NCBI GenBank assembly: GCA_001942045.1
Contig: MSTD01000014.1
Span: 40,206-98,875 of the forward strand
Source of the DNA: Mycolicibacterium porcinum
GTDB lineage: Bacteria > Actinomycetota > Actinomycetes > Mycobacteriales > Mycobacteriaceae
Direction of reading: 5' to 3'
Length of the DNA stretch: 58,670 bases
Every line of letters starts with the position of its first letter. Position 1 is the first letter of the stretch. This document shows positions 17,633 to 58,345 of the stretch, in pieces. Both the position numbers and the translations under genes were made by a program. The notes under the pieces were generated by a model that saw only the letters and a list, made by a program, of their open reading frames with translations, was not told the origin of the DNA and did no database searches.

Positions 17633-17646
17633 AGTAGTGCACTACT
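17633..17646. promoter_or_regulatory. Palindrome AGTAGTG-CACTACT between methyltransferase and exporter
   Basis: A perfect 14-bp palindrome in the divergent gap. Its 12-bp core GTAGTGCACTAC begins 38 bases from the methyltransferase start codon. The same core recurs at 19226-19237, and GTAGTCGACTAC occurs at 58334-58345. The sequence looks like a binding site for a dimeric regulator; no regulator gene of an obvious matching type lies close by. Confidence 0.6.
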
Positions 17647-17774
17647 CAATTTCTCTTGGCGTCAATTTGCGGAGCCGCGCCACCCCAGCAAAAACCGGTT
17701 TCCCTGATGTCGGGTGTCCCACCTACCCTGGGTGGCTGCGCAAACGAAGTCTCGGGGGAGACAGGGGAGAGGTA

Positions 17775-19208
17775 ATGAGCACGGGGGAGATCGCGACGCA
17801 ACCGCGTGCCCAGGCGAGCGCCAACGTCATCATCGCGCTGCTGGTGGGTTCGGCGTTCGTGATGATCCTCAACGAGACGATCATGAGTGTGGCGCTGCCG
17901 GCGCTGATCGTGGACCTGGACATCACCGCGAGCACGGCGCAATGGCTGACCAGTGGCTTCCTGTTGACGATGGCCGTGGTCATCCCGATGTCCGGTTCGC
18001 TGCTGCAGCGCTACCCGGTGCGGAGCATCTACCTGGCGTCGATGGGGTTGTTCTGTACCGGCACCCTGGTCGCCGCGCTGGCGCCGGGGTTCGCGGTGCT
18101 GTTGGTCGGACGGATCGTGCAGGCGTGCGGGACCGCCGTGATGATGCCGCTGCTGATGACGACGGTCATGACGTTGATCCCGGCCGACCGGCGCGGCCAG
18201 ATGATGGGCACCATCTCGATCGTCATCGCCGTCGCGCCGGCGATCGGTCCCACGCTGTCGGGGTTCATCCTGGGCTCGCTCGACTGGCGCTGGATGTTCT
18301 GGATCGTGCTGCCCATCGCACTGGTGGCGCTCAGCGCCGGTCTGGCCTGGCTGCGGGTCGACGATGAGCGGGAGGAACCGACCCCGATCGATCCCGTCTC
18401 GGTACCGCTGTCGGCGGTTGCGTTCGCGGGCTTGGTGTTCGGGCTGTCGCTGATGGGCGAGGGGGCCCACGGTCAGCAGTCGCTACCGGCGTGGGTGCCG
18501 ATGACGGTGGGTGCGGTGGCGATGGTGCTGTTCGGCGCGCGCCAGATCCAGCTGCAGCGACGCGACCGCGCGTTCCTCGACCTGCGCCCGTTCACCTATC
18601 GCCGGTTCTCGGTGTCGCTGGGCCTGGTGATCCTCGGGTTCATGGGATTGTTCGGCGCCATCATCATGGTGCCGCTGTACGTCCAGGACGTGTTGAAGCA
18701 GAGCGCGTTGGTCGCCGGACTCGCGACCCTGCCGGGCGGGCTGCTGATGGGGTTGGCCGGCCCGCTGGTCGGGCGGGCGTATGACCGGCACGGTGCCCGG
18801 GTGCTCGTCGTGCCGGGGTCGCTTCTGCTGTGCGCGTCGCTGTGGGGATTCACCCTGCTGTCGGCGGCGTCGCCGGTGTGGGAACTCGTTGTCCTGCAGA
18901 CGATCATGATGGTCGGCCTGTCGATGATGTTCACCCCGTTGATGACTGACGCACTCGGTGTCCTGCCCGACCGGTTCTATTCACACGGCAGTGCCATCTT
19001 GACGACGCTGCAACAGGTCGCGGGTGCGGCCGGAACGGCCTTGTTCGTGACGGTCATGACGAAGGCGTCGCAGGCGGGCGGGGCCCCGGATCTGCCGGGT
19101 GTCCATGCCGCGTTCACGGTCGCCGCGATGATCAGCGTGATCGCGGTGGTGGCGGCGTTTTTCACGGCGCCGCGCCCGAGTCCCGCGGGCGGTACGCCGA
19201 CGCATTAG
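17775..19208 (+). CDS. MFS exporter, DHA2 (14-TM, EmrB/QacA-type)
   Basis: 477 aa with about 14 hydrophobic segments. MFS motif A-like and motif C (the antiporter signature GPTLSGFILG) are visible near residues 155-165, and the N-terminal FVMILNETIMSVALPAL matches motif D1 of the DHA2 family. These are proton-driven exporters of drugs or of self-made lipids and signals. I start at the ATG at 17775, after a GGGGAGAGGT ribosome binding site, 50 codons inside the longest open frame. It is divergent from the methyltransferase, shares the 17633 palindrome with it, and is followed by a second copy of the palindrome. This suggests the exporter ships a product connected with the methyltransferase. 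Confidence 0.88.
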   Translation: MSTGEIATQPRAQASANVIIALLVGSAFVMILNETIMSVALPALIVDLDITASTAQWLTSGFLLTMAVVIPMSGSLLQRYPVRSIYLASMGLFCTGTLVAALAPGFAVLLVGRIVQACGTAVMMPLLMTTVMTLIPADRRGQMMGTISIVIAVAPAIGPTLSGFILGSLDWRWMFWIVLPIALVALSAGLAWLRVDDEREEPTPIDPVSVPLSAVAFAGLVFGLSLMGEGAHGQQSLPAWVPMTVGAVAMVLFGARQIQLQRRDRAFLDLRPFTYRRFSVSLGLVILGFMGLFGAIIMVPLYVQDVLKQSALVAGLATLPGGLLMGLAGPLVGRAYDRHGARVLVVPGSLLLCASLWGFTLLSAASPVWELVVLQTIMMVGLSMMFTPLMTDALGVLPDRFYSHGSAILTTLQQVAGAAGTALFVTVMTKASQAGGAPDLPGVHAAFTVAAMISVIAVVAAFFTAPRPSPAGGTPTH

Positions 19209-19224
19209 CGCCGGATCCCGGTCG

Positions 19225-19237
19225 AGTAGTGCACTAC
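19225..19237. promoter_or_regulatory. Palindrome copy 2, AGTAGTGCACTAC
   Basis: The 12-bp core GTAGTGCACTAC (19226-19237) is identical to the site at 17634-17645. It lies in the 112-bp gap after the exporter gene, 84 bases before the start codon of the two-repeat protein. Confidence 0.55.
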
Positions 19238-19270
19238 GCGTGCACGGTGCCGTGCCCACGGCTGACAGTG

Positions 19271-19297
19271 GATGTGCCCATCGACCGGGGGCACATC
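19271..19297. promoter_or_regulatory. Inverted repeat in leader of the two-repeat protein gene
   Basis: GATGTGCCC (19271-19279) and GGGCACATC (19289-19297) are exact reverse complements around a 9-nt spacer. The element ends 23 bases before the start codon, close to the ribosome binding site CAGGAG. It could be a second operator or an mRNA hairpin that affects translation. Confidence 0.45.
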
Positions 19298-19320
19298 GGC
19301 ACTCGACACAGGAGTTCAAC

Positions 19321-19614
19321 ATGAGCTGGAGATGGACTGGTAATCACGGGGACGCACCGTCGGCCGCGGCTGCGGCCACCGCATCGGGAGCAGGACCCGG
19401 TGAGGCGATCTTCGAGGTCAACGACGGTGGGACCGTCGGCCTTTACATATTCGACAACCACACCGGCACCGGTGGTCGCGCCTGGCACTGGACCGGCAAT
19501 CACGCTGACGCCCCGTCGGCGGTGGCTGCGGCCAACGCAGCCGGCGCCGGCCCGGGTGAGGCCGTCTATGCCGTGAATGACGGTGGCACGGTCGGTCTAT
19601 ACCTGCTCAACTGA
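19321..19614 (+). CDS. Small protein built of two tandem 52-residue repeats, unknown function
   Basis: 97 aa, composed almost entirely of two copies of one unit: W-x-W-TGNH-x-DAPSA, an Ala-rich stretch, GAGPGEA and VNDGGTVGLY. Residues 3-44 and 55-96 match at 32 of 42 positions, with a period of 52. There is no signal peptide, membrane segment or cysteine. The alternating aromatic/Gly pattern suggests two small beta modules, perhaps a lectin-like or propeller-blade-like unit, but I do not recognise a family. The ribosome binding site CAGGAG is well placed. The gene carries the GTAGTGCACTAC palindrome upstream and its own terminator downstream, so it is an independent, probably regulated unit. 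Confidence 0.8.
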   Translation: MSWRWTGNHGDAPSAAAAATASGAGPGEAIFEVNDGGTVGLYIFDNHTGTGGRAWHWTGNHADAPSAVAAANAAGAGPGEAVYAVNDGGTVGLYLLN

Positions 19615-19618
19615 ACTC

Positions 19619-19663
19619 CCTCGCCTCAGCGCAACCGGCGATCCCGGATGCGCTGAGGCGAGG
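19619..19663 (+). terminator. Hairpin terminator after two-repeat protein
   Basis: CCTCGCCTCAGCGCA (19619-19633) pairs perfectly with 19649-19663 across a 15-nt loop, immediately after the stop codon. There is no T-run, as is common for mycobacterial terminators. Confidence 0.65.
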
Positions 19664-19681
19664 TCGGGCACAATCGAACCC

Positions 19682-19844
19682 GTGCAGGAATCCCCGAAAG
19701 TTGTGGTCATCACGGGCGGCTTCGATCTCCAATATCGACGATGAGCGGTGGCGCTCCACGCGACGGGCGGATCGTCAACAACGGGTCGATCTGCGCGCGT
19801 CGTCCCCGTCCCGGGAGCCTGGCCTACACCGTCACGAAACACGC
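19682..19844 (+). pseudogene. Remnant of SDR gene (decayed copy of 28726-29472)
   Basis: From about 19666 this stretch matches the promoter and start of the intact SDR gene at 28726, sharing the word ATCGAACCCGTGCAG before and over the start codon and AAAGTTGTGGTCATCACGGG after it. The match then jumps twice. About 230 bp of the intact gene are missing after the glycine-rich motif and about 70 bp after GAGCGGTGGC. It ends at AAACACGC (19844), in the YxxxK active-site region. The frame is destroyed and the catalytic core is missing. It marks the left edge of the sugar cassette. Confidence 0.85.
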
Positions 19845-19870
19845 CCGGCCCTGTCATTACGCGCGAATTC

Positions 19871-21040
19871 TCAGCCGCTGCAGGCCGGCGTCGAGGCGAT
19901 CGTGACAGTGCCGTCGCGAAGGATTCTGCGGCATAGCTCAGCAGTGGAATCGGTGAGTGCTGAGGCACTTTTCCGGAGCGCTTGCTGTAGCGGCGTTCCA
20001 GGCGGAGTGATCGCGATGATTTCGTGGACACCGTGATCCAGCATGACGGAGGCGTCGGGGCTGACCCGGCCGGCAAAGATCACTGCAGGCGTGTTGTTGG
20101 CCAGTGCAAGCTGCGCAACCCCGAATGGGGTCTTGCCCAGTGCCGTTTGAGCGTCGACACTGCCCTCCCCGGTGAGCACCCAGTCCGCGTCTCGGAGGTG
20201 TTCTTCGAGTCCGACAGTTTCCGCGACGATGCTCACCCCGGGCTGCATTTCGGCGGAGAGGTATTCGAGAAGCGCGAATCCGAGTCCGCCGGCGGCCCCT
20301 GCGCCCGGACGCTCGGGCCATGCCCGGCCCAGTGCAGTCGACGTGGCCGCGACCAGCTCTGTGAGTGCCGACTCCAACGTTCTGACATCGGCTGCTGTAG
20401 CGCCCTTTTGCGGCCCGAATACGGCGCTCGCGCCTCCAGCGCCCAGCAGGGGCGCGGTAACGTCGCACGCCAGACGGACACGGACGTCGCGCAGACGGCG
20501 GTCCAGACTGCTCAGCTCAATCCGGTGAAGACGCTGAAGCGCGGCTCCGCCCGGTGCTACGCAACGGCCGTCCACGTCGACGAACCGGGCGCCGAGGGCC
20601 GTGAGCATTCCAGTCCCGCCGTCGTTGGTTGCCGAGCCACCCAATCCGACCAGGATTTCTGTGGCGCCGGCGTCCAGGGCCGAGGTGATTAGCTGGCCGA
20701 CTCCGAAAGTGCTGGAACGGAGAACATCTCGCTCACGCGGGGCGACGAGTTCGATACCCGCTGCCGCAGCGCTCTCGATCACTGCCAAGCGCCGGTGCGG
20801 CACGTAACCGTAGCTGGCGGTGACGGCCCGGCCCAGCGGATCCTGCACGTCGACGAAATTGCGTCGCCCGCCCAGCGCATCGACGATCGCGTCGACTGTC
20901 CCTTCGCCACCGTCGGCCATCGGAACTCCGACGCATTCCGCGTCGGGAATGACCGACAGCACACCTGTACGCATGGCCTGCACCGCTTGCGCTGCGCTCA
21001 ACGACTCCTTGAACGAATCGGGCGCCAGGACGAACTTCAC
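19871..21040 (-). CDS. Glycerate kinase (GlxK/GarK type)
   Basis: 389 aa, the usual length of the glycerate kinase type 1 family. Recognisable are the N-terminus [11 protein letters not shown], the [11 protein letters not shown] block, [15 protein letters not shown] near residue 135 and the late [16 protein letters not shown] near residue 290. It phosphorylates D-glycerate to 2- or 3-phosphoglycerate, feeding glycolysis. The start overlaps the stop of the hydroxyacid dehydrogenase (ATGA), so the two are translationally coupled. This is the last gene of the six-gene minus-strand operon led by the DeoR repressor, and it ends 26 bases from the decayed SDR copy. Confidence 0.92.
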
Positions 21041-22029
21041 CGGACCGGGGTCAGAGGGGGTTGCCCGTCGAGCACCGCTGCGACGTTGTCGATGGCGAGA
21101 ATGCCCATCGTGTCCCGGGTCGCTTCACCGGCGCTGGCGGTGTGCGGTGTGAGGGTGAGTCCGGGTGCGTTCAGCAGGGCCGGGTTGACGTGTGGTTCGC
21201 CCTCGAACACATCCAGTGCGGCACCGCGGATTTGGCCGCCGTGCAACGCGGCGATCAACGCGGTCTCGTCGACGACGCCGCCGCGGGCGGTGTTGATCAG
21301 GTAGGCGGTGGGCTTCATGGTCCGTAGCGCGTCCGCGTCGATCAGGTGATGTGTCTCGGGGGTGAGTGGAGTATGGACGCTGACGATATCGCTTTCGGCG
21401 AGTAGGACGGACGGCTCGACGAACCTCACACCGTCCTCGACGGTGCCCGGTACACGGCTGCGCGAGGACGCGATGACAGTCATGTCGAAGGCGTGGGCGC
21501 GCCGCGCAACCGCTTTCCCGATACGGCCATAGCCGAGGATGCCCAGGGTCGCGCCGGCGCTGATGTCGAGCCCGACCAGCATCCGCGGTCCCCACACCCA
21601 GGGCTGCCGGGAACGGATGAGCCGGTCGCCTTCGGTGACCCGGCGGGTGGCGTCGAGGATCAACGCGAAGGCGTGGTCCGCCGACGCGCGGTCCAGCACC
21701 CCGGGGGTGTTGGTTACGGTGATCCCTGCTGAGTTGGCAGCCGCCAGGTCGATGTTGTCGAATCCGACTGCGACGTTGGCGATGACCTTCAATTGCGGTC
21801 CGGCGGCGGCCAGCAATTGTGCGTCGACGCGTTCGGTCAGGGTGATCACCGCAGCGCTGGCGCCGGCGATGCCCGTTTCCAGTTCGGCGCGGCTCGGCGG
21901 CAACTCGGACCCGATCCGCACCTCGGCGCCGAGCGCGTGGAGATGATCCATGGCGCGGTCGGTGAGAAGCCGTGAGACATAGATCAATCCGGCCACGGTT
22001 CGGGTGGGGGACACCGGCGACATCGTCAC
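21037..22029 (-). CDS. D-2-hydroxyacid dehydrogenase (glyoxylate/hydroxypyruvate reductase-like)
   Basis: 330 aa with the NAD-binding GYGRIG motif near residue 160, the catalytic arginine in INTARGGVVDE, the glutamate in FEGEPHVNP and the histidine in LTPHTASAG. The usual role is NAD(P)H reduction of glyoxylate or hydroxypyruvate to glycolate or D-glycerate. Being directly upstream of glycerate kinase makes hydroxypyruvate-to-glycerate the best guess. I keep the GTG at 22029, because AGGAG lies 9 bases before it; the ATG two codons later is the alternative. One base separates it from the FGGY kinase stop. Confidence 0.88.
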   Translation of the reverse strand: MTMSPVSPTRTVAGLIYVSRLLTDRAMDHLHALGAEVRIGSELPPSRAELETGIAGASAAVITLTERVDAQLLAAAGPQLKVIANVAVGFDNIDLAAANSAGITVTNTPGVLDRASADHAFALILDATRRVTEGDRLIRSRQPWVWGPRMLVGLDISAGATLGILGYGRIGKAVARRAHAFDMTVIASSRSRVPGTVEDGVRFVEPSVLLAESDIVSVHTPLTPETHHLIDADALRTMKPTAYLINTARGGVVDETALIAALHGGQIRGAALDVFEGEPHVNPALLNAPGLTLTPHTASAGEATRDTMGILAIDNVAAVLDGQPPLTPVR

Positions 22030-22030
22030 G

Positions 22031-23578
22031 TCAAGACACTCCTACTGAGGCGCTGCGGGTTCGGGCCGCTGGGTCGAGGGATTCGTCGAGCGTGGCCGGC
22101 GGCTGGATTCCGGTGACGGTGGACCAGACCTGCCGGTAGTGCTGCCAGCGCTCGGCCACGATGTTGCGCCACTGCGGGCGGGGCCGCACCAGGCGCGCCT
22201 GCGGCGGGTTCACCGAATGCCCGACGAGCACCGTCACACACATCGCTGCGGCACCGATAGCGGGAAGATGACTCTCGTCGATGACCAGGATGTCGCGGTC
22301 CAACGAATCAGCCAGTAACTGCGGCAGTTCGGGCTCGAAGCCGAAAGCCCCGCTGACGTACAGGGTGCGCTGTCGTTCCTCGATGCAGGCTTCGATGATC
22401 ATCCGGTCGGCGAACAGCACCCCTTCGACGATGCCACGGGCGGCAGCCGGTGCCGCCGGATGGGGGATTGCGCCCAGTATCGCTGTCCTCGGTTCGGCGA
22501 ACCACAGAGGGCCGCGTTCGGGCCGGGTATGAGGAACGAACACCGGCGCCTGGTCCATCTCCTCGGGCTGGGCCCGGAAAGCGCTCGACACCAGGGCTTC
22601 TACCGCGATGTCACCTTGCCCGTAGCCCAGATGCGCGGCACCTTCGGCCAGCGCGTCACCGCCGTTGATCACTCCGTTGATCAGCCACCGGCCGGCGTGT
22701 ACGTCGACCCGCTGCAGCGCTTTGGCGCGATGGTCGGGCGCCGACAACGCATTCGACACGACATGGGTTGTCCCCATGATCAGTAAGGGCCGTCCACCGG
22801 GCTCGGTTCCCAGCGCGAACGAGGCGGCAGGCGTGTCGCCGGAGCCGACGATCACCGGAATGCCCTGGGGCAGCCCAAGAGTCGCCGCCGTACTCGCCAG
22901 CAACGTGCCGAGTACGCTCAGTGACGGCCGCACCGGCGGTAGTTGCCGAGCCGGGATTCCCAGCTGCTGAGCGACCGCATCGAGCCAGCGGCAGGATCCG
23001 TCGGTGCTGGCCATCAGACCGGTGTAGGACGCCTGGGTGGGGTCGATCGCGCGTTCGCCGGTCAGCCACTGGCCCAGCCAGGTTCCGGCGAGTCCGAATG
23101 TGGTTGCCACAGAGACGGCTTGGGGTTCGATATCCTGCAGCAGCCGGTGCGCTGCCCCCATTGCGGTGGCCGGCATCAGGTGGTTTCCGAGCAGCTTTCG
23201 GTGCTCGGGGCTCAGCGAGGCGATCAATGCAGCGGTGGGTTCGGCCAGGCCGGGGTGATCCCAGGTGACGCCGGGAACCAGCGGCACACCGCATTCGTCG
23301 AGCAGTAATGCGGTGGGGCAGTGGGTATCCATCCCGACCCCGGCGACGGTCGCGGTATGCGGCGCCAGCCCACGTACGGCCGCGGTGATGCTGGCCCTCC
23401 ATGCAGACGGATCGGCCCGCCCGGCCCCGGCTCCGCGTGCTGCGGGATGCGGAACCCTGGACCGGGCGAGGACCGTGCCGTCCCCGGCGAGGATCACGGC
23501 TTTGGTCGCGGATGTGCCGACGTCGATTCCGAGGTAGGTCGTCGAAGTGGCGTCCTGCGGATGCTGATTCTCAGACAT
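22031..23578 (-). CDS. FGGY-family carbohydrate kinase
   Basis: 515 aa, typical of the FGGY (xylulokinase/gluconokinase/LsrK) family. The N-terminal phosphate loop is YLGIDVGTSATKAVI, the substrate region includes VTWDHPG near residue 115, and the second actin-fold half carries VIVGSGDTPAASFALG and MGTTHVV; LYVSGAFG replaces the usual C-terminal GG motif. It phosphorylates an open-chain sugar, ketose or sugar acid. Position between the LsrF-like aldolase and the hydroxyacid dehydrogenase suggests it primes the substrate for aldol cleavage. The GAAGGAG site precedes the ATG. The sugar cannot be named from sequence. Confidence 0.87.
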   Translation of the reverse strand: MSENQHPQDATSTTYLGIDVGTSATKAVILAGDGTVLARSRVPHPAARGAGAGRADPSAWRASITAAVRGLAPHTATVAGVGMDTHCPTALLLDECGVPLVPGVTWDHPGLAEPTAALIASLSPEHRKLLGNHLMPATAMGAAHRLLQDIEPQAVSVATTFGLAGTWLGQWLTGERAIDPTQASYTGLMASTDGSCRWLDAVAQQLGIPARQLPPVRPSLSVLGTLLASTAATLGLPQGIPVIVGSGDTPAASFALGTEPGGRPLLIMGTTHVVSNALSAPDHRAKALQRVDVHAGRWLINGVINGGDALAEGAAHLGYGQGDIAVEALVSSAFRAQPEEMDQAPVFVPHTRPERGPLWFAEPRTAILGAIPHPAAPAAARGIVEGVLFADRMIIEACIEERQRTLYVSGAFGFEPELPQLLADSLDRDILVIDESHLPAIGAAAMCVTVLVGHSVNPPQARLVRPRPQWRNIVAERWQHYRQVWSTVTGIQPPATLDESLDPAARTRSASVGVS

Positions 23579-23634
23579 TCGGAATACCCACTCCTTCGGG
23601 GGTCGCGCACGAATCGGTTCGGCCGGTGATCGGG

Positions 23635-24477
23635 TCAGTCGAGCAGCTTGGCGGCGACCTCGGGGCTGTCGCCACCGTGGATGACGGCCTTGAGAGCGGC
23701 GACCATCTTGCCGGGATTCTCGGCCTGCCAGATGTTGCGGCCCGCGGTCATTCCGTGGGCGCCGGCTTCGACGACGGACGCGGCCTGCTTCAGCACGTCC
23801 AGCGGGCTGTTGGCGGGTGCGCCGCCGGCGGCCACCACGATGGCAGGGGTTCCCTCGACAACCTTGGCGAACTCCGCGGTGGAGCCGGTGTACCAGGTCT
23901 TGACGATGTCGGTACCGAGCTCGGCCGCGGCACGGGAGGCGTACAGCACGGATTCGGTGGAACCCTTACGGTCACCCCACAATTCGCCCGACGGGTAGGC
24001 GTGGCAGACCACCGGCAGACCCCAGGTGTGGGCTTCCTCCACCACGCTGTTGAGCATCTCGAACATGGCAACCTGGTTGGACGAGCCGGCCGAGATACCC
24101 ACGGCGACGGCGTCGGCGCCGAGCCGGACGGCGTCCTGCACCTTGGCGATGGTGGCGTCGTAGGTCGGGTGGAACTCGACGGAGAACATCGAGGCTTTCA
24201 GGATCCAGGGCAGCGGAGCGCGATTGCCGCCGAGCAGGGGGCCGGCCAGGCCCTTCGTGATGGTGACGGCGTCGGGCTCACCGTCGGCGATGCTGGCGAA
24301 CGTGGAGCCGATGGTGGCCAGGCGGGGTGCGACGCCGCGGGGCACAGCCTGGTCCAGTGCCACGGTCAGGGTGCGGCCATCGGCACCGAACAGCCTGCGC
24401 AGGCGCAGGTTTCGGCCCAGCGCTGCGGTGGTTCCGGACGGATTGATGTCGAATGCGGGCGTAAAACTGGTGCTCAT
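23635..24477 (-). CDS. Class I aldolase, DeoC/LsrF/FbaB-type
   Basis: 280 aa, related to the LsrF/archaeal-FbaB group of TIM-barrel class I aldolases. The N-terminal VALDQAVPRG stretch, the Schiff-base lysine region DIVKTWYTGS near residue 185, and the phosphate-binding end VVAAGGAPA...TAGRNIWQ fit that group. It should cleave or thiolyse a phosphorylated keto-sugar. I use the ATG at 24477, which follows AAGGAG; the longer frame has no site. It lies between the dehydrogenase and the FGGY kinase, with gaps of about 50 bases each side. Confidence 0.83.
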   Translation of the reverse strand: MSTSFTPAFDINPSGTTAALGRNLRLRRLFGADGRTLTVALDQAVPRGVAPRLATIGSTFASIADGEPDAVTITKGLAGPLLGGNRAPLPWILKASMFSVEFHPTYDATIAKVQDAVRLGADAVAVGISAGSSNQVAMFEMLNSVVEEAHTWGLPVVCHAYPSGELWGDRKGSTESVLYASRAAAELGTDIVKTWYTGSTAEFAKVVEGTPAIVVAAGGAPANSPLDVLKQAASVVEAGAHGMTAGRNIWQAENPGKMVAALKAVIHGGDSPEVAAKLLD

Positions 24478-24523
24478 TGCGTGCTGCTCCTTGTGATGTG
24501 GGTGGACGAGTTCGGGGGCGGGA

Positions 24524-25615
24524 TCAGGCCCAGGGATCGACACCGACGCGCATGTCGGCGCCGGAGCCGGCGAGGGTGAGCGCCTCGACGGCGCGGTCCA
24601 GCGGCAATTGGGTGCCGATCAGTTCGGCGACCGGAAGTTCACCGCTGGAGACCATGGGGGCGACAGCGTGGAAACCGTCGAGGCGGCACGAGGACGCGCC
24701 GACGATGTTCCATTCGTTGTAATGCACATCGTTGGCGGACACCGCGAGGTCTGCGTCGGACCCGAACCCGGCGAACACGGACACGCTGGCGCCCGGCGCC
24801 AGACATCCCAAATAGGGTGTCAGCGCATCGATTCGGCCGATCGCCATGACCAGCACGTCGATCCCGCCGTTGCTGAACTCGTTGAGCTGCTCGGCGGCAT
24901 CGGGGCCGGGTTCGAGTACCAGATCCGCGCCGAACCGGGTTGCCATGGCACGGCGTTTGGCGATCGGGTCGACGGCGGCCACCTTCTCCACGCCGAGGTT
25001 CTTGGCGAGGCCGGTGTGGATCAGTCCGAGGGGACCGCAGCCGACGATCAACGCTGTCTCGGCCCGCGACATCCCGGCGAGCTTCTGGCCGTTGTATGCG
25101 CATGCGACGGGTTCGATGATGGCGGCTTCGGCGGCTGACACTCCCCGTACCGGCACCAGATTCTGCCGTGCTTCGGCCGGGACGTACACGTACTGGGACA
25201 GGCCGCCGGTGAGCTGGTAGCCGAACGCCTTGCGGTTCTTGCAGATGTTTTCGTGCCCCTTGCGGCAGGCTACACACTTGCCGCAGCTGACCAAGGGGTA
25301 TACGGCGACCTGGTCGCCCATGGAAACACCCTCGGGCAGTGGCCCGTTGGCATCGACCACGGTGCCGGCGAACTCGTGCCCCAGCACAGTGGGGAACGTA
25401 ACGTTCTTCTGCTTGCGGCCCTCGTAGATACGAACATCGGTGCCGCACAACAGGGCTGCGTCGACCCGAAGGAGAACATCGCCGGGTTGCAGCGTCGGCA
25501 TCGCCACCTCTTCGATCCTGAGATCGTTGGGGCGGTGCAGTACGGCCTGGCGCAGTGAGCGGTCAGAGTAGGCGGCCGCCGCGGCTGAGGTGGCGGAGTC
25601 CGATGTGGTGGTCAC
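24524..25615 (-). CDS. Zinc-dependent medium-chain dehydrogenase (polyol/sugar-acid dehydrogenase-like)
   Basis: 363 aa MDR enzyme. Catalytic zinc ligands lie in ALLCGTDVR and LGHEFAG. The structural zinc site is the four-cysteine run CGKCVACRKGHENIC, and the nucleotide fold starts with ALIVGCGPLGLI. This subgroup oxidises a secondary alcohol in sugars, polyols or sugar acids with NAD(P). The GTG at 25615 overlaps the DeoR stop by four bases (GTGA) and has GAAAGG upstream, so translation is coupled to the repressor. It is the likely first catabolic step of the operon. Confidence 0.88.
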   Translation of the reverse strand: MTTTSDSATSAAAAAYSDRSLRQAVLHRPNDLRIEEVAMPTLQPGDVLLRVDAALLCGTDVRIYEGRKQKNVTFPTVLGHEFAGTVVDANGPLPEGVSMGDQVAVYPLVSCGKCVACRKGHENICKNRKAFGYQLTGGLSQYVYVPAEARQNLVPVRGVSAAEAAIIEPVACAYNGQKLAGMSRAETALIVGCGPLGLIHTGLAKNLGVEKVAAVDPIAKRRAMATRFGADLVLEPGPDAAEQLNEFSNGGIDVLVMAIGRIDALTPYLGCLAPGASVSVFAGFGSDADLAVSANDVHYNEWNIVGASSCRLDGFHAVAPMVSSGELPVAELIGTQLPLDRAVEALTLAGSGADMRVGVDPWA

Positions 25616-51154: not shown

Positions 51155-51763
51155 ATGAAAGCAGAGCCATCACCACTTGGCAAGAGTGCCGGAGCGGGAC
51201 GCCCCCGTGACCCGCGCATCGACGCTGCCATATTGCAGGCGACCACGGACCTGCTTGTCGAAATCGGTTACGCGAACCTGACCATGGCCGCGGTAGCCGA
51301 GCGGGCGCAGACCACGAAAACGGCGCTGTACCGCCGGTGGTCGAGCAAAGCGGAGTTGGTGCACGAGGCGGTGTTTCCGGCTGCCGCGACCGCTTTGACG
51401 ACGCCGGCCGGTGACATCGCCGGCGATATCCGGGCGATGATCGGTGCTGCCCGTGACGTGTTCACCAGTCCGGTGATGCGTGCGGCGTTGCCCGGGCTGG
51501 TCGCCGACGTCGTCGCCGACACCGACCTGAACGCCCGGGTGATGCAGCGGTTCGCCGGGACCTTTGTCACCGTGCGCGCCCGGATCGTCGACGGCATCAT
51601 GCGCGGCGAGGTCCAACCCGATGTCGACCCGGACCGCCTGGTGGAGCTGATCGGCGGGTCGACCATGCTGCGGATGCTGCTGTGGCCCGAACGCGAACTG
51701 GACGACGAGTGGGTGGCGCAGACGGCGGCCATCCTGGTGCACGGGGCCACCGTCAGCAAGTAA
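51155..51763 (+). CDS. TetR family regulator (Rv3167c-like)
   Basis: 202 aa. The helix-turn-helix occupies residues about 22-68 (IDAAILQATTDLLVEIGYANLTMAAVAERAQTTKTALYRRWSSKAELV), and the C-terminal ligand domain follows. Divergent from the Rv3168/Rv3169-type pair, the same arrangement as in M. tuberculosis, where Rv3167c is a TetR repressor. The ATG at 51155 is chosen because the N-terminal basic stretch before GRPRDPR is typical; longer open sequence upstream would run into the divergent gene. Confidence 0.87.
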   Translation: MKAEPSPLGKSAGAGRPRDPRIDAAILQATTDLLVEIGYANLTMAAVAERAQTTKTALYRRWSSKAELVHEAVFPAAATALTTPAGDIAGDIRAMIGAARDVFTSPVMRAALPGLVADVVADTDLNARVMQRFAGTFVTVRARIVDGIMRGEVQPDVDPDRLVELIGGSTMLRMLLWPERELDDEWVAQTAAILVHGATVSK

Positions 51764-51822
51764 CGCCTGACGCCCTTTACGTCAGACTGAGGACAAATCT
51801 TCCGAGCCGCTCCGAGGCCGCA

Positions 51823-51828
51823 TAGCCT
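51823..51828 (+). promoter_or_regulatory. Probable -10 (TAGCCT) for the transporter/monooxygenase unit
   Basis: TAGCCT ends 8 bases before the GTG at 51837, compatible with leaderless transcription. Confidence 0.35.
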
Positions 51829-51836
51829 GCGGCCAC

Positions 51837-53150
51837 GTGACTATTACCGACCCAGGTTCCCTGGCCACTGCCAAGCCGAGTGCGCGCACCGTCGCGTTGG
51901 GCAGCGCGGTCGGCACCACGATCGAGTGGTACGACTTCTATCTCTATGCCACGGCCGCGGCCCTGGTTTTCAAACCGCTGTTCTTCCCGAACATCTCGTC
52001 GACGGCCGGCACGCTGGCTTCGTTCGCGACCTATGCCGCCGGGTTCGGCGCCCGGCCGCTGGGCGCCCTGATATCGGGCCACTACGGAGATCGGCTGGGG
52101 CGCAAGACCGTCCTGGTGATCGCCCTGGTGGGCATGGGCCTGAGCACGTTCGCGATCGGACTCCTGCCGACCTATGCCCAGATCGGGTTGCTCGCGCCGG
52201 CACTGCTGGTGGGCCTGCGGCTGCTCCAGGGTTTGGCGGTGGGTGCCGAATGGGGCGGTGCGGCATTGCTTTCGGTGGAGCACGCGCCGCCCGGACGCCG
52301 CGGTCTGTTCGGCAGCTTCACCCAATTGGGTTCCCCGGCAGGCATGTTGCTGTCGACGGCGGTCTTCTATCTGACGCGGTCGGTTATCGGTCCCGACGCC
52401 TTCCTCGCCTACGGGTGGCGAATTCCCTTCCTGCTCAGTGCGGTTCTGGTTGTCGTCGGTCTGGTTATCCGGCTCCGGCTCACCGATGCCGAGATGTTCA
52501 CGCAAGTCCGGGACCGCGGCGAGGTGGCGCGGCTTCCGGTGCTGGAGGTACTGCGCACCCAGCCGCGTAATGTGTTGATCACCACGGGGCTGCGGTTCTC
52601 GCAGATCGCCCTGTTCGTCCTGTTGACCACGTATTCGTTGACGTAATTGCAGGATTCGTCGGCAGGCAGCCAGGTGGGCCTGACAGCCGTGCTGATCGCT
52701 TCGGCTGTCGGACTGATCAGCACGCCGGCCTGGGCCATGCTGTCCGACCGGATCGGCAGGCGGCCGCCGTATCTGTTCGGTGCGGTGGCCGGAGTGCTGG
52801 CTCTGATCCTGTTCTTCGTCGCGGCGGGAACCGGATCGCACATCGCGATCGTGTTGTCGATCGTGTTCGGCGTCAACATCGCTCACGACGCCATGTACGG
52901 GCCGCAGGCCGCCTGGTTCGGGGAACTGTTCGATACCCGAGTCCGCTACAGCGGTGCTTCGTTGGGCTATCAGATCGGTGCGGTGCTCTCGGGTGGATTC
53001 GCACCGTTGATCGCGGCGGCGCTGCTGGTCGCCGGTGGCGGTAGCCCCTGGCTGATCGTCGCGTATTTCGCGGTGCTGACCGCGATCACCTTCACCGCCG
53101 CCTACTTCGCGCGGGAGACACATCTGGACGAGATCGGGGACGCGCGATGA
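51837..53150 (+). pseudogene. MHS-family metabolite transporter interrupted by an in-frame TAA
   Basis: One continuous frame encodes a 12-TM transporter of the metabolite:H+ symporter family (ShiA/KgtP/ProP type; TIEWYDFYLYATAAALVF at TM1, GHYGDRLGRKTVLV as motif A, LQGLAVGAEWGGAALL at TM4). Codon 270 (52644-52646) is TAA, and the same frame resumes at once with the rest of the fold for 168 codons (AWAMLSDRIGRRPPYLFG is the second motif A). The family usually has Tyr or another residue here, and TAC or TAT needs one change to become TAA. The product would stop after about TM7. The 3' part overlaps the next start codon (ATGA), so translation of the monooxygenase may suffer too. A sequencing error cannot be excluded. 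Confidence 0.8.
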
Positions 53151-54535
53151 CCAGGATCTACCTCAACGCCTTCGACATGGCCTGCGTCGGTCATCAGTCC
53201 GCGGGATTGTGGCGTCATCCCGACGACCAGGGCTACCGGTACCGAGAACTCGGGTACTGGACCGAACTGGCCCGCACACTGGAGGCAGGGGGTTTCGACG
53301 CGTTGTTTCTGGCCGACGTGCTCGGCGTCTATGACGTGTACGGCGGTTCGCGGGACGCGGCGGTCGCCGACGCCGCCCAGGTGCCGGTCAACGACCCGAC
53401 GCTGGCTGTTTCGGCAATGGCGGCGGTCACCGAGACCCTGGGGTTCGGTGTCACGGCGTCGTTGACCTACGAGCAGCCGTACGCGTTGGCGCGCCGGTTC
53501 TCCACACTGGATCACCTGACGGGCGGCAGGGTGGCCTGGAACATCGTCACCTCCTACCTCGACAGTGCTGCGCGGAATCTGGGCCTGGATGCCCAGATCC
53601 CACATGACGAGCGGTACGAGATCGCCGAGGAGTACCTCGAGGTCTGCTACAAGCTGTGGGAGGCGTCCTGGGAACCAGGCGCTGTTGTCCGCGACCGGGA
53701 ACGCGGTGTGTTCACCGATCCGGCCAAAGTCCATGACATCGAACACAAAGGGCGCTACTTCAGCGTCCCGGGACCGTTCCTGTGTGAACCGTCTCCGCAG
53801 CGCACGCCGATGTTGTTTCAGGCGGGCGCCTCGCCGCGAGGGGTCCGGTTCGCCGCGGCTCACGCCGAAGCGGTGTTCGTATCGGGCCCGACGCCCGAAA
53901 TCGTGGCCAAGCCGGTCAAGGCATTGCGTGCCGCCGCCGCGGAACACGGACGAGACCCCCGGTCCATCAAGGTGTTCACGATGCTGACCCCGATCGTTGC
54001 CGAAACCCACGACGAGGCGGTCGCCAAGTTGCACGACTACCGGCGGTTTGTCAGCACCGAAGGTGCGCTCGCCCTGTTCGGTGGCTGGACCGGGGTCGAT
54101 CTGGCCGAACTCGCGGCCGACGAACCGCTGCGATACGTCCAGACCGAGGCCAATCGTTCGGCGCTGGCATCATTCACCACGTCGGACCGGAACTGGACGG
54201 CGGGAGAGCTGGCCGACGAGGTCGGGCTGGGCGGGCGTGGCCCGGTCGTGGTGGGCTCACCGGGTGAGGTGGCCGATGAACTCGAACGTTGGGTCGACGA
54301 GGCCGACGTCGACGGGTTCAACCTGGCCTATGTCACCACGCCGGGCACGTTCGGCGACTTTGCCCACCATGTCGTGCCCGAACTGCGTCGACGCGGCCGG
54401 GTACCCGATCGAGCCGAGCGGGTGACGCTGCGCGAACGGCTCGGCGGGACTGGGCCTTTGCTGTCACCCGACCATCCCGGTGCGGCTCAGCGCCCACCGG
54501 GCTGGTACCGAGACGTTGACATGAACCACTGTTGA
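53147..54535 (+). CDS. NtaA/DszA-type FMN-dependent monooxygenase
   Basis: 462 aa, the size of the NtaA/SnaA/DszA/SoxA luciferase-like monooxygenase group. N-terminal LNAFDMACVGHQSAGLWRHPDD, the FDALFLADVLGVYDVYGGS block and DHLTGGRVAWNIVTSYLDSAARNLG are diagnostic. These enzymes use FMNH2 from a separate reductase to oxidise chelators, thioethers or similar compounds. The ATG overlaps the transporter's stop (ATGA). SnoaL-like, PIG-L and zinc dehydrogenase genes follow on the same strand, so it may head a small degradation unit whose importer is now broken. Confidence 0.9.
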   Translation: MTRIYLNAFDMACVGHQSAGLWRHPDDQGYRYRELGYWTELARTLEAGGFDALFLADVLGVYDVYGGSRDAAVADAAQVPVNDPTLAVSAMAAVTETLGFGVTASLTYEQPYALARRFSTLDHLTGGRVAWNIVTSYLDSAARNLGLDAQIPHDERYEIAEEYLEVCYKLWEASWEPGAVVRDRERGVFTDPAKVHDIEHKGRYFSVPGPFLCEPSPQRTPMLFQAGASPRGVRFAAAHAEAVFVSGPTPEIVAKPVKALRAAAAEHGRDPRSIKVFTMLTPIVAETHDEAVAKLHDYRRFVSTEGALALFGGWTGVDLAELAADEPLRYVQTEANRSALASFTTSDRNWTAGELADEVGLGGRGPVVVGSPGEVADELERWVDEADVDGFNLAYVTTPGTFGDFAHHVVPELRRRGRVPDRAERVTLRERLGGTGPLLSPDHPGAAQRPPGWYRDVDMNHC

Positions 54536-54552
54536 GGTCGGACACTGGAGCC

Positions 54553-54951
54553 ATGAACGCCAAGGATCAGCGGGACATCATGGATGTCATGGCGACGACG
54601 ACCGATCTGTGGAAGGCGCACGATATGGACGGATGGGGGCGGTATTTCACCGAAGACGCCGATTTCGTCGCGCACAGCGGATTGTGGTGGACCTCGCGTC
54701 GCGACAATGTCGACGGACACCGAGACGTTCCGGAAACCGTTGTCCGGCAGAAGCGGAACTATAGTCAACGGGTCGAGACAATCGACGAGATTGCACCCGG
54801 TGTGGCGCTCGTGCACACCCGGTGGGACTGGCCCGACCACGTCCAGCCGGGCATGCCGGCGCAGAATCGCAGCGGCATCATCAGTTACGTCCTGATCGAA
54901 CACGACGGGCACTGGCTGATCCGCTCCGCCCACAACACGCGGGTGAGCTAG
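54553..54951 (+). CDS. SnoaL-like / NTF2-fold protein
   Basis: 132 aa. The pattern MATTTDLWKAHDMDGWGRYFTEDADFVAHSGLWW, then alternating strands and HDGHWLIRSAHNTRV at the end, is the DUF4440/SnoaL-like cone-shaped fold, which binds or isomerises small hydrophobic molecules. The ATG follows CTGGAG. It lies 17 bases after the monooxygenase gene and 2 bases before the PIG-L gene, so it is part of the same transcript. Catalysis is not evident. Confidence 0.8.
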   Translation: MNAKDQRDIMDVMATTTDLWKAHDMDGWGRYFTEDADFVAHSGLWWTSRRDNVDGHRDVPETVVRQKRNYSQRVETIDEIAPGVALVHTRWDWPDHVQPGMPAQNRSGIISYVLIEHDGHWLIRSAHNTRVS

Positions 54952-54953
54952 CC

Positions 54954-55628
54954 ATGGCCGTGCAACCGTTTCCTTCGGACTGGCATGTCGCGCTGGTGTT
55001 GGTGCCGCACCCGGACGACCCTGAGTACGGGGTCGGCGCTGCGGTCGCGAAGTGGACTTCAACGGGCAAGACTGTCCATTACGCCCTGGCCTCGCGGGGT
55101 GAGGTGGGTATCGCCGGGATGGCCCCCGAGGAGGCCGGGCCGCTGCGGGAAGGGGAGCAGCGCCAGTCGGCCGCCATCGTCGGCGTGGATGACGTGCAGT
55201 TCTGGGACTTTCCGGACGGCAACATCCGCAACACACCTGAACTGCGGGCGAAGATTGCCGAGACGATCGTGGCGTTGCATCCCGACGTGGTGATCACCCT
55301 CTACAGCGGGCCGAGCTGGGCGCCCGGCGCGCCCAACCAGCGGGACCACATCGAGTTCGCTCACGCGGTCGCTGCGGCATATGACGGCCTCGCCGACCCG
55401 CCGGCCTGGCTCTTCGAGAACGGGCCGGATCCGACGCATTGCGAGGTGGTCGACGGCTACACCGAAGTGGCAGTGAATTCACTTGCCGCCCATGAGGTTT
55501 ACCTGTCGGTGCTCGATCCGGAAACACCTGTCATCGAACAGGCGCGGAAGCAGGTGGAGATGTCGACCCCGCCGATTCCCGGGCTTGGCGGGCGGACCGT
55601 CGGCTTCATCCTGAAGCGTCCGACCTGA
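54954..55628 (+). CDS. PIG-L family (GlcNAc-PI de-N-acetylase-like) deacetylase
   Basis: 224 aa with the LmbE/PIG-L zinc motif PHPDDPEYG near residue 19 (usual form AHPDDxE) and a later QRDHIEFAHAV near residue 126 that should supply the third ligand. In actinobacteria the family includes MshB and Mca, which act on mycothiol intermediates or mycothiol S-conjugates, so a detoxification or conjugate-processing role is possible. The start is the ATG at 54954, 2 bases after the SnoaL-like stop. The substrate is unknown. Confidence 0.86.
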   Translation: MAVQPFPSDWHVALVLVPHPDDPEYGVGAAVAKWTSTGKTVHYALASRGEVGIAGMAPEEAGPLREGEQRQSAAIVGVDDVQFWDFPDGNIRNTPELRAKIAETIVALHPDVVITLYSGPSWAPGAPNQRDHIEFAHAVAAAYDGLADPPAWLFENGPDPTHCEVVDGYTEVAVNSLAAHEVYLSVLDPETPVIEQARKQVEMSTPPIPGLGGRTVGFILKRPT

Positions 55629-55645
55629 ACCGCGCGGGCTCGGCC

Positions 55646-55651
55646 TACCAT
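55646..55651 (+). promoter_or_regulatory. Probable -10 (TACCAT) of zinc dehydrogenase gene
   Basis: TACCAT ends 7 bases before the GTG at 55659; leaderless spacing, no ribosome binding site. Confidence 0.4.
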
Positions 55652-55658
55652 CGCACCT

Positions 55659-56696
55659 GTGCGTGCAGTGATGTATTCCGAGATCGGCGCGGCACCGACG
55701 GTGGTCGAGGCGGCAGATCCCGAGTGTCCTGACGACGGGGTCGTCATCGATGTCGCCGCCACGGGTCTCTGCCGGTCCGACTGGCACGCCTGGCGCGGAC
55801 ATGACCCCGTAGCGCTGCCGATCATTCCGGGGCACGAATTCGCCGGGACCATCGCGGCTGTCGGTGCCGATGTAACGGGCTGGCAGGTGGGCGACCGGGT
55901 GACGGCTCCCTTCGTGCTGGGCTGCGGGCGGTGCGAGTTCTGTGTGGCCGGTGACGCGCAGGTCTGTCCCGACCAGGAGCAGCCTGGTTTCACCTTGCCG
56001 GGATCGTTCGCCCAGCAGGTGGCGGTACCGCGGGCCCAGACCAATCTGGTTCGCCTGCCCGACGGGGTCTCCTTCGCCTCGGCCGCCTCGTTGGGGTGCC
56101 GGTTCGCGACATCGTTCCGGGCCCTGGTCACCCACGGAGAAGTGGAGCGCGGCCAGTGGGTCGCGGTCTACGGCTGCGGCGGGGTCGGCCTGTCGGCGGT
56201 GATGATCGCGAAAGCGTTCGGCGCCAACGTCATCGCGGTTGACGTCAACGAGGGCGCCCTGGCCGCGGCGCGTGGACTCGGTGCCGATGAGATCGTCAAC
56301 AGCAGCGAAAGTGGCGACATTGCCGCGGAAGTCGTGGCCCGCACCGGGGGCGGCGTGCACATCGGTGTCGATGCCCTCGGCCATCCGGACCTCGCGGCCG
56401 CCTCGGTCTTCTCACTTCGGCGGCGCGGGCGGCACATTCAGGTCGGCCTGCTCCTCGGGGACGCCGCCCTGACCACATTCCCCATGGACCGGGTGATCGC
56501 GCACGAACTCGCGATCCTCGGGTCGCACGGCATGCCTGCCGTCGACTATCCGGCGATGCTCGACCTCATCGCGTCAGGTGCGCTGGATCCGGAGCGGTTG
56601 GTGACCCGGCGAATCGGCCTCGTTGAGGCAGGTGCGGCGATGGCCGGCATGGATGCTCCGACGCCGGGGATGACGCTCATCGAGCCCGCCCGGTGA
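55659..56696 (+). CDS. Zinc-dependent alcohol dehydrogenase
   Basis: 345 aa MDR. The catalytic zinc residues lie in TGLCRSDWHAW and PGHEFAGT, and the structural zinc in CGRCEFCVAGDAQVC. Cofactor motif VYGCGGVGLSAVMIA is near residue 170, followed by an aspartate consistent with NAD (AVDVNE). It resembles the 6-hydroxyhexanoate / secondary alcohol dehydrogenase branch. It lies 30 bases after the PIG-L gene but has its own likely -10, so it may be transcribed both ways. It converges on the PKD protein gene with a 19-base gap. Confidence 0.88.
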   Translation: MRAVMYSEIGAAPTVVEAADPECPDDGVVIDVAATGLCRSDWHAWRGHDPVALPIIPGHEFAGTIAAVGADVTGWQVGDRVTAPFVLGCGRCEFCVAGDAQVCPDQEQPGFTLPGSFAQQVAVPRAQTNLVRLPDGVSFASAASLGCRFATSFRALVTHGEVERGQWVAVYGCGGVGLSAVMIAKAFGANVIAVDVNEGALAAARGLGADEIVNSSESGDIAAEVVARTGGGVHIGVDALGHPDLAAASVFSLRRRGRHIQVGLLLGDAALTTFPMDRVIAHELAILGSHGMPAVDYPAMLDLIASGALDPERLVTRRIGLVEAGAAMAGMDAPTPGMTLIEPAR

Positions 56697-56715
56697 TCGT
56701 GGGTGTGACTCGGGA

Positions 56716-58296
56716 TCAGGCCGGGGCAGTGACGGTGATGGCGAAGGTCTTGGACACCGTGTTGCCCTGGATGTCTGAGCCGGACAGCGTCACGGTATAG
56801 GGCCCCGGAGCGGCCCAACCGTGGGTCACGGTAGGGCCGGTACCCTCGGGTGTCCCGTCGCCGAAATCCCATTTGACGGCCCCCATCGGCGACCAGGTAT
56901 CGGCGATCCGGCTACGCAGTTGCACAACTTGATTCACCGCGACGGTCGCCGGGACGGCGGCCTCCGCAATGTCGGGTGGACCCGCGTCGAACGCAGTGGC
57001 GTAAGCGCGACTGGTCAACACGTCGTACAACGTCTCAGTAACCACCACGTTGCCCGATCGGTCGCTGACCACGTCGTCGATGGTGTGAGCTGGGCCCTGC
57101 TCAGCAAGATCCACGGCACTCTTCGGGTCCTTCAGGTACACCGGCCAGTGGCTGGCCCGGAAGATGCCCAACCCCGGGTCTCCTCCACCGAAACCGACGG
57201 CACCGGTGTATACCAACACAGCTTCCTCGCTTCCGAAGGGACCCTTACGGATGGCGATCTGACCGTCGCGGGACTCCGTGCCGAGGGGTGACACCACCTT
57301 CGGAGTCGCCCAGATGCCCGGATAGCTGCTGCGCGTCGCGCATATCGCAGTGTTTCCTGTGGTGCTCGGGCCGTCGCGGCGAACCAACGCGTAGCTCATA
57401 CCGCTGAAGGTGATTCCGACGTCGAGGCATGAACTCCCGGCTGCCGTGGAGGTATTGAACAGTGCTGTGAATGCCTGCCACGACCCGGTGTTGTTTTCCC
57501 GGGTAGCGACGTTCGCCTGTCCGCCGACGTACGCGCCGAGGACGGCCGCGCCGGAATAGTTCACGGCGAGGCGCACGCCACCGGCATCGGTCCCGTTCTC
57601 GGGCGTGAGGGCGACCGCCGACGGTGTCATACCCGTGGCGCTGGGCATGCACACCCGGATCGACGACCGAGGCGGCGATTCCTGGTAGCGGTGGACCCAG
57701 GCGACTGTAGGGTTTCCCAGCCCGTCGACCCCAAGGGCCATGCCGCCGTTGAGCCCGCCGGTCGGAGCGAGCTTTTGGGGCGCGGTCCACGTCCCGTTGG
57801 GCAGGTGAAAGGTGACGACGACCGAGCCGACCGCCGATCCGGCAGCACCGTCGAACCGATCCGCGATCACTACGGCGTTTCCGTTGTCGGCCACCTTCAC
57901 TCGCCGTTGCCGGATGAATTGGCTGGGGGCGCTCGCCGGCACCAACTCTGTTGGTGTCTCCCACTTCCGGGTCGCCGCCGGGGCATACGTGACGTAGTGG
58001 CGCCACTGGTAGGTGGCGGGGTCGGTGCTGCTGACGGTGGTGAAGCAGGCCGCGGCGCTGCCGTCCGCACCGGCTGCCAGCGTGATCTCGATCGGAATGT
58101 TCCCGGCGACCGACTTCTTCTCGAACACGTCGACCCACGTACCGTTCTTCCGCTCCGCGATCGCCACTCGGGTGGACACCGGGTCGAGCGACAGCAACTG
58201 GGCGTAGGCGACCCGCACCCGGCCGGAACTCTCGAGGCCGACACTGGGCCCGGACCAGTGCGAGGGAAGTGGTTGCGCGGGCGACCAATTTGCCAT
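56716..58296 (-). CDS. Propeller-like protein with C-terminal PKD domain, no signal peptide
   Basis: 526 aa. Residues about 1-430 contain repeating units of roughly 50-60 residues with hydrophobic-aromatic strand patterns (for example NGTWVDVF, RKWETPTEL, NGTWTAPQKL, GSWQAFTAL, GIWATPKVV), as in sialidase/BNR-like beta-propellers. The C-terminal 90 residues form a PKD domain: VKWDFGDGTPEGTGPTVTHGW and YTVTLSGSDIQG. Such proteins are usually extracellular and bind glycans, yet no signal peptide is visible from this ATG or from a longer frame. A GTAGTCGACTAC palindrome lies 38 bases upstream of the start, as with the methyltransferase at 17596. Function unknown. Confidence 0.75.
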   Translation of the reverse strand: MANWSPAQPLPSHWSGPSVGLESSGRVRVAYAQLLSLDPVSTRVAIAERKNGTWVDVFEKKSVAGNIPIEITLAAGADGSAAACFTTVSSTDPATYQWRHYVTYAPAATRKWETPTELVPASAPSQFIRQRRVKVADNGNAVVIADRFDGAAGSAVGSVVVTFHLPNGTWTAPQKLAPTGGLNGGMALGVDGLGNPTVAWVHRYQESPPRSSIRVCMPSATGMTPSAVALTPENGTDAGGVRLAVNYSGAAVLGAYVGGQANVATRENNTGSWQAFTALFNTSTAAGSSCLDVGITFSGMSYALVRRDGPSTTGNTAICATRSSYPGIWATPKVVSPLGTESRDGQIAIRKGPFGSEEAVLVYTGAVGFGGGDPGLGIFRASHWPVYLKDPKSAVDLAEQGPAHTIDDVVSDRSGNVVVTETLYDVLTSRAYATAFDAGPPDIAEAAVPATVAVNQVVQLRSRIADTWSPMGAVKWDFGDGTPEGTGPTVTHGWAAPGPYTVTLSGSDIQGNTVSKTFAITVTAPA

Positions 58297-58333
58297 ATGC
58301 CGACGCTACGACCCTTCTTGGCCGCCGCAGTGA

Positions 58334-58345
58334 GTAGTCGACTAC
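58334..58345. promoter_or_regulatory. Palindrome copy 3, GTAGT-CG-ACTAC
   Basis: A perfect 12-bp palindrome that differs from the 17634 and 19226 sites only in the two central bases. It begins 38 bases from the PKD protein start codon, exactly the distance seen for the methyltransferase. Confidence 0.5.

Follow-up and report, generated by a model that had tools for sequence, protein, structure and literature searches.

The window analyzed here, a 58,670-nucleotide stretch of the genome of Mycolicibacterium porcinum (contig MSTD01000014.1), contains three exact copies of a palindromic box, GTAGTNNACTAC, all of them intergenic, upstream of genes coding for a methyltransferase, a two-repeat protein and a PKD-domain protein. 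Comparisons with related genomes indicate that the palindrome is real and regulatory, and the view that a shared regulator acts through it is well supported. Mechanistically, LAL-type regulators most likely act as activators via a fixed directional box, often on leaderless promoters. We consider a directional operator-promoter element served by a LAL activator to be the best explanation as a whole, and a probable one. An original prediction, made from the letters of the window, had located the palindrome at these three intergenic spots (its first two coordinates were one base off, or included a flanking A/T) and proposed a four-gene regulon on this basis. The observation was right and the regulon idea was right in kind, but too small in scope.

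Layout, conservation and placement of the box

With at most one mismatch allowed, GTAGTNNACTAC was found four times in the window, whereas 100 shuffles gave an expectation of 0.21. A directional profile made of 81 sites, all from outside the window, retrieved just the three exact copies, with scores between 27.7 and 30.0; the next best score was 7.4. The one-mismatch match at 3020-3031 was rejected as a fourth window site, as its flank-inclusive profile score was 6.8.

The box has a fixed directional layout, consisting of flanks, GTAGTNNACTAC and then a -10-like hexamer 25 to 26 bases downstream. Fifty sites facing one gene only, two of them from the window, were aligned in the orientation of that gene. 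Ahead of the box, A was found at position -6 in 36 sites, T at -4 in 31, G at -2 in 33 and A at -1 in 32; behind it, position +12 was G or T in 46 sites, +13 was C in 40 and +16 was G in 33. Farther downstream, A occupied column 38 in 30 sites and T column 42 in 33, these columns being the two key positions of the mycobacterial -10 hexamer. TANNNT began at offset 25 or 26 in 12 of the 50 sites, and in at most one site at any other offset. In a second set of 33 different sites, 25 had A at -6 and 15 had YANNNT at offset 25 or 26, with at most three elsewhere. Among 16 sites located in coding sequences, A at -6 was found in two on one strand and one on the other.

Distances from the box were collected for 149 facing genes, a list that includes the three window sites and seven loci selected because they match a LAL or the PKD protein or lie near a LAL gene (L174, L175, L193, L194, L214, L233 and L234). 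These distances are approximate owing to the starts set by the gene caller, which was trained on window genes and can misplace them, as for the two-repeat protein in L001 and L004 and for the PKD gene. The commonest distance was 38 bases (12 cases), and three more genes were at 39. All 15 read NANNNT, six or seven bases, then the start codon. They represent seven families, namely the SARP-like genes described below (7), the methyltransferase (2), cytochrome P450 (2) and four single proteins. This arrangement suggests leaderless transcripts that would begin with the first base of the start codon.

The original prediction had remarked on an identical 38-base offset from the box to the starts of the methyltransferase (17596) and PKD (58296) genes. 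The offset is indeed the same, with 37 bases in between, and as the hexamer-to-start arrangement recurs in 15 of 15 genes, the equal spacing can be explained as a rule with a likely cause. The PKD gene, for which the gene caller picked a later start, has TAGCGT in the same layout as the 38-base genes. With the -10 hexamer placed at -12 to -7, the center of the palindrome would lie near -43.5, which corresponds to the position of a class II activator.

The box is conserved upstream of orthologues, a point on which the original prediction had proposed to judge it, for the methyltransferase (6/6), the two-repeat protein (4/4), the PKD protein (1/1) and the SARP-like genes at least 44% identical to the query (17/17). 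Methyltransferase relatives were found in M. porcinum, M. septicum, M. setense, Mycobacterium sp. URHD0025, M. chlorophenolicum and M. chubuense, and also on one contig of a metagenome-assembled genome that lacks the 5' end of the gene. In the six relatives with upstream DNA the box has zero to two mismatches: it is exact in L003 and L004, as in the window, and differs at one position in L001, L002 and L007 and at two positions in L005. Orthologues of the two-repeat protein, 98 to 100% identical, are found in L001-L004 and are missing from L005 and L007; their box is exact in L001 and L004, and that of L002 and L003 has a single mismatch. At an E value of 1e-20, the PKD protein had a match in one of 148 genomes of the genus (L194, 83% identical), and upstream of this single orthologue found, the box and TAGCGT are identical while the surrounding bases differ. 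Of the 17 SARP-like genes, 14 have an exact box and three a box with one mismatch.

To describe the placement of the box, every exact site was taken from 15 genomes, comprising six with a methyltransferase relative, three that are rich in sites and six site-rich ones without a strong LAL match, each of the latter with at least five sites. The shared regulator of the original prediction is supported by layout and conservation, but its scope was underestimated, since these genomes carry between 5 and 17 exact sites each. Counted without the window sites and without the loci selected for LAL or PKD, 119 of 127 exact sites were intergenic, a class that takes in sites overlapping a gene end by a few bases. 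The coding sites amounted to 2 of 46 in G001-G006, 1 of 43 in G039, G115 and G148, and 5 of 38 in G026, G055, G099, G116, G138 and G139 (three LAL-selected loci left out). A control palindrome, CATCANNTGATG, which is the box pattern read backwards, was intergenic at 13 of the 20 sites examined out of 31 found (L092-L111), a lower proportion than for the box (Fisher p 0.001). Part of the intergenic bias is therefore general, not box-specific. The control sites were themselves intergenic beyond the expectation from coding density, and CATCANNTGATG may be another regulatory motif.

At least one exact copy of the box is present in 133 of 201 genomes of the family. Within the genus, 27 of the 148 genomes are without any exact copy, and box counts are overdispersed, with a variance-to-mean ratio of 3.17 against 1.26 for the control.

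LAL proteins and other candidate regulators

The candidate LAL protein is about 870 amino acids long. Pfam analyses identified a GerE domain, i.e., a LuxR-type helix-turn-helix, at residues 810-861 (E 7e-11), and no REC or autoinducer domain; the N-terminal AAA ATPase was recognized as AAA_16, above cut-off in the L055 protein and below it in that of L090, from M. chlorophenolicum. LAL matches at E 1e-30 were present in 140 of the 148 genus genomes. With six candidates scored per genome, the genomes were classed by best LAL hit as strong (55), mid (54) or weak (39). The box occurred at 0.89, 0.47 and 0.14 copies per Mb in these three classes, a 6-fold range, compared with a flat 0.77, 0.79 and 0.73 for the control, values that are uncorrected for relatedness. 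Among genomes of at least 5.5 Mb, the 47 with a strong LAL had 5.98 sites per genome and the 41 without had 2.05. Twenty-four further genomes were picked at the family level by box count, 12 with at least five sites and 12 with none; LAL matches at E 1e-20 were found in 11 of the former and 2 of the latter (p 6e-4).

The box was also found beside LAL genes themselves. Across 63 LAL loci, we identified 12 distinct exact sites, where about 0.3 would be expected. Exact sites were present in 4 of 20 strong LAL loci and in 3 of 19 mid-class loci, picked from part of the LAL-hit list, in each of which the site lies 57 to 88 bases upstream of the LAL gene; 24 family-level loci contained five distinct exact sites. 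In G138, the box heads a three-gene row that ends with a LAL gene. The sites of the family-level loci include boxes between tandem LAL genes in three genomes (G171:C4:54634-60084, G196:C5:436804-442215 and G227:C16:16090-21391).

We propose with moderate confidence that the activator is a LAL protein, with an N-terminal AAA ATPase and a C-terminal LuxR/GerE helix-turn-helix domain. The core of the element would be approximately G-N-GTAGT-NN-ACTAC-N-C, two 7-base half-sites with a 2-base spacer. It would lie about 43 bases ahead of the predicted transcription start, either immediately before the -35 region or overlapping it. A dimeric activator would bind the box and, judging from this class II geometry, recruit RNA polymerase to promoters whose -10 hexamers are often weak. 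Several LAL genes have the box in their own promoter, as autoregulation would predict. The targets of the LAL protein would further include, in some lineages, a small SARP-like regulator and, in one examined genome, a WhiB-like protein. The genes driven by the box in the window would be those of the methyltransferase, the two-repeat protein and the PKD protein, under a regulator encoded elsewhere in the genome. The original prediction had noted no regulator beside the boxes; by tblastn, no LAL or SARP-like gene was found in the window, where other regulator types were not searched for.

A broader version of this model is more tentative, and we would sooner doubt it than rely on it. A set of paralogous LAL proteins might share one box and cross-regulate, and genes gaining a box and a weak -10 hexamer might join a fast-changing secreted, redox and biosynthetic program. 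Many of these genes would be leaderless, with protein starts fixed by the box, and a cascade from LAL to SARP or WhiB proteins would amplify the response.

Several observations weigh against activation by LAL proteins through a directional box. Seven of the 55 strong-LAL genomes have just one exact site, and G153 and G294 are site-free yet possess a good LAL match. Conversely, no LAL was found at E 1e-20 in G245, which has five sites, and at least five sites are present in ten genomes lacking a strong LAL. Most of the 63 LAL loci are without a site, and no site, whether exact or with one mismatch, was found in 13 of the 19 mid-class loci. In L180, L261 and L263, approximately 0.7 to 1.4 kb separate the site from the LAL gene. 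Some LAL-locus cases, namely L174 and the pair L251/L253, are also closely related to others. The genomes rich in LAL proteins may merely represent a single branch of the genus. Both aligned sets contain orthologous promoters, so that their sites are non-independent. As for placement, the control palindrome is itself often intergenic, and one site taken from each of 30 genomes gave 22 intergenic and 8 coding sites, similar to the control (p 0.55). Finally, the box totals 466 copies in the 148 genus genomes and the reversed pattern 631.

The last two points bear on the enrichment in promoters anticipated in the original prediction, which was found in the 15 chosen genomes and not with one site per genome. 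Among the 30 single sites, the coding ones came from 7 of 18 genomes with at most three sites and from 1 of 12 genomes with more, a non-significant difference (p 0.10). The weaker bias in less selected genomes is as expected if the copies in few-copy genomes are mostly due to chance. Comparing genome-wide totals with those of the reversed pattern was discarded as an uninformative test, since that pattern is intrinsically commoner: weak-LAL genomes, at 0.14 boxes and 0.73 controls per Mb, show that the reversed pattern is a poor yardstick.

Another dimeric regulator that shares the distribution of LAL proteins, such as a response regulator of the NarL type or a protein of the GntR type, might bind the box, with the LAL link partly reflecting shared ancestry. 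The LAL correlation was computed without correction for phylogeny, and a 7-2-7 inverted repeat suits NarL-type dimers generally. Moreover, in a published census M. smegmatis has 32 LuxR-domain proteins and M. bovis BCG Pasteur has 7, implying that many candidates may co-vary (PMC3466318). We nevertheless regard this explanation as unlikely, because boxes are found next to LAL genes in several LAL branches, an observation independent of genome-wide co-variation. In addition, no other class except the SARP-like one was noticed so often beside boxes, in a set of neighbors that were not all scanned for regulator domains.

The box might instead be a repressor operator close to the promoter, which we judge a little less probable again. 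Palindromes near promoters are commonly repressor sites, and orientation and placement alone are no proof of activation. However, with about 25 bases between the end of the box and the -10-like hexamer, the hexamer and the start are left uncovered, and the many weak -10-like hexamers, such as AAGCAT and GAGGAT, suit activation.

A further proposal, to which we give slightly less credit still, is that the small SARP-like protein (165 to 195 amino acids, like the N-terminal DNA-binding part of AfsR-type proteins) binds the box and would autoregulate from 38 bases upstream, the LAL genes being mere targets. The box at 17 of 17 genes of at least 44% identity argues for it, as does a second box at the 3' end of the gene in two genomes. 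However, matches to the SARP-like protein at E 1e-5 were found in just 21 of the 148 genomes, and G115, G034 and G049, with 13, 11 and 11 sites, have none; the protein was rejected as the main binder because several site-rich genomes lack a match. Beyond the 17 genes, one broken copy, in G085, has the box, and three weaker ones (31 to 41% identity) are without an exact box. The control pattern is also enriched in SARP-bearing genomes, and SARP proteins prefer direct repeats. The SARP label relies in part on a weak match of the L032 protein to the AfsR model (E 0.03, residues 5-100); the L126 protein gave no such match, and no Pfam family was found at E 1.

In the two genomes with boxes at both ends of the SARP-like gene, these lie at positions 2001 and 2586 of L126 and 2001 and 2584 of L136. 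The broken gene of G085 (L169/L173) matched in two frames, one of which contains a TAG codon, and its exact upstream box is kept.

That the three window copies are due to chance or represent a general intergenic feature is very improbable: raw counts below those of the reversed pattern, the often intergenic control and the 22 of 30 single sites are in its favor, but it is contradicted by the layout, with its directional flanks and fixed -10 distance, by conservation in orthologues and by the 17 of 17 SARP-like promoters.

To our knowledge, few LAL binding sites have been defined. The class II activators LuxR, NarL and DosR recognize inverted repeats, with a 2-base spacer for the NarL type and a LuxR-box-like position near -42. 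The box differs from the sites of LuxR- and NarL-type class II activators by its half-site, and the candidate LAL has no REC or autoinducer domain. We take Rv0560c to be a methyltransferase, different from and shorter than that of the window. Like the window gene, Rv0560c is a mycobacterial gene linked to a palindromic site, under the MarR regulator Rv2887, but the Rv2887-protected sequence contains CGATCG and not GTAGTNNACTAC, and we rejected Rv2887/Rv0560c as a matching system (PMC5526998, PMC3317779).

In NCBIfam, the best IniR match of the LAL protein covers its C terminus (E 2e-10), and the domain plan is the same, but the LAL scores 39.5 bits on NF038181 against a cut-off of 750. IniR (Rv0339c/MMAR_0612), a mycobacterial ATPase whose C-terminal DNA-binding domain is LuxR-like, induces iniBAC, and the main text of the study describing it contains no occurrence of the words palindrome, inverted repeat or consensus (PMC5760070). 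IniR was rejected as the regulator of the box, with the LAL far below the IniR cut-off and no box in that main text. The LAL protein matches TransRegAbsR2 at E 1e-57, but reaches 196.2 bits on NF050132 against a cut-off of 850. SCO6993 of Streptomyces coelicolor is also named AbsR2. SCO6993 is a LAL of 606 amino acids, reported as a repressor, that binds short palindromes in target promoters and its own; a consensus could not be predicted, and its sites share none and bear no resemblance to GTAGTNNACTAC (PMC9628970). TpdR of Rhodococcus jostii TMP1 is likewise a LAL regulator of an inducible actinomycete promoter, but its proposed site is a 15-base direct repeat and not the palindrome described here (PMC6099782). 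A text search of one literature collection for GTAGTCGACTAC, GTAGTGCACTAC or GTAGTNNACTAC returned no paper, and no title was recognized as describing the box among the matches listed for Rv0560c, IniR, LAL, LuxR and mycobacteria.

Genes associated with the box

The facing genes group into 84 clusters. Recurrent members are the SARP-like gene and its divergent neighbor, which we take to be LtrA-like, LAL regulators, a CotH-kinase-like protein, cytochrome P450s, small proteins with an ITEQQVLF-type motif, and proteins that are presumably DUF2235-like. Pfam scans of the four window proteins and 22 neighbor proteins, out of 149 facing proteins, identified CotH, DUF732, NlpC/P60, p450, Peptidase_M43, Peptidase_S8, animal haem peroxidase, WhiB and FAD-binding domains in sampled members, and many sampled box-linked proteins have no recognized family. 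The surface or signaling program imagined in the original prediction is too narrow a description of a set whose sampled members comprise P450s, FAD enzymes, peptidases, one CotH-kinase-like protein, a peroxidase, WhiB and many unknown proteins.

The box provides a readable directional promoter signature for mycobacterial genes, many of which have no recognized family, and links them to the little-studied LAL class, which is common in the genus. Its sharp consensus predicts both transcription and translation starts, and it makes the signal, the regulator and the targets directly testable.

A cluster of nine small proteins with a VLITEQQVLF-like motif was observed in L034, L039, L045, L122, L138, L149, L204, L219 and L222. 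Their genes lie 82 to 95 bases past the box in six cases and 143 to 167 in three.

The features of the window are listed in Table 1. The promoter of the methyltransferase at AAGCAT would be leaderless, as inferred from its spacing, and the protein itself had no match among solved structures at E 0.001. The exporter gene is divergent to the methyltransferase gene, and in its direction no NANNNT occurs at offsets 20 to 31 past the box. It was rejected as a direct target because it lacks a -10-like hexamer at the right distance, and its membership in the regulon is possible but unsupported by the geometry. Of the four genes of the original prediction, three are therefore counted in the window, while the exporter drops out.

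Table 1. Box copies, -10-like hexamers and genes of the window
Feature	Coordinates	Strand	Observations
Palindromic box GTAGTGCACTAC	17634..17645	-	Exact match; orientation to methyltransferase favored (profile 27.7, against 26.3 toward exporter)
-10-like hexamer AAGCAT	17603..17608	-	From sequence; 25 bases past box, 6 before methyltransferase start codon
SAM-dependent (S-adenosylmethionine) methyltransferase, 347 amino acids	16553..17596	-	Pfam Methyltransf_25 and Methyltransf_20
DHA2-type efflux transporter, major facilitator superfamily	17775..19208	+	MFS_1; TIGR00711 efflux_EmrB above cut-off
Palindromic box GTAGTGCACTAC	19226..19237	+	Exact match; faces two-repeat protein; profile 27.8, reverse 21.8
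-10-like hexamer GACAGT	19264..19269	+	From sequence; 26 bases past box of two-repeat protein
Two-repeat protein, 97 amino acids	19321..19614	+	No Pfam or NCBIfam match
Palindromic box GTAGTCGACTAC	58334..58345	-	Exact match; faces PKD protein; profile 30.0, reverse 18.6
-10-like hexamer TAGCGT	58303..58308	-	From sequence; 25 bases past box, 6 before ATG of PKD gene
PKD-domain protein, 526 amino acids	56716..58296	-	Pfam PKD_4 and PKD

At the two-repeat promoter, GCTGACAGTGGATG is also present in L001 and L003, and the sequence of L004 is closely similar. A second inverted repeat, CCCACCTACCCTGGGTGG, was observed at 17718-17735, between the box and the start of the exporter gene. It is kept in L002-L004, shows one change in L001, and may be part of the exporter's own promoter or operator.

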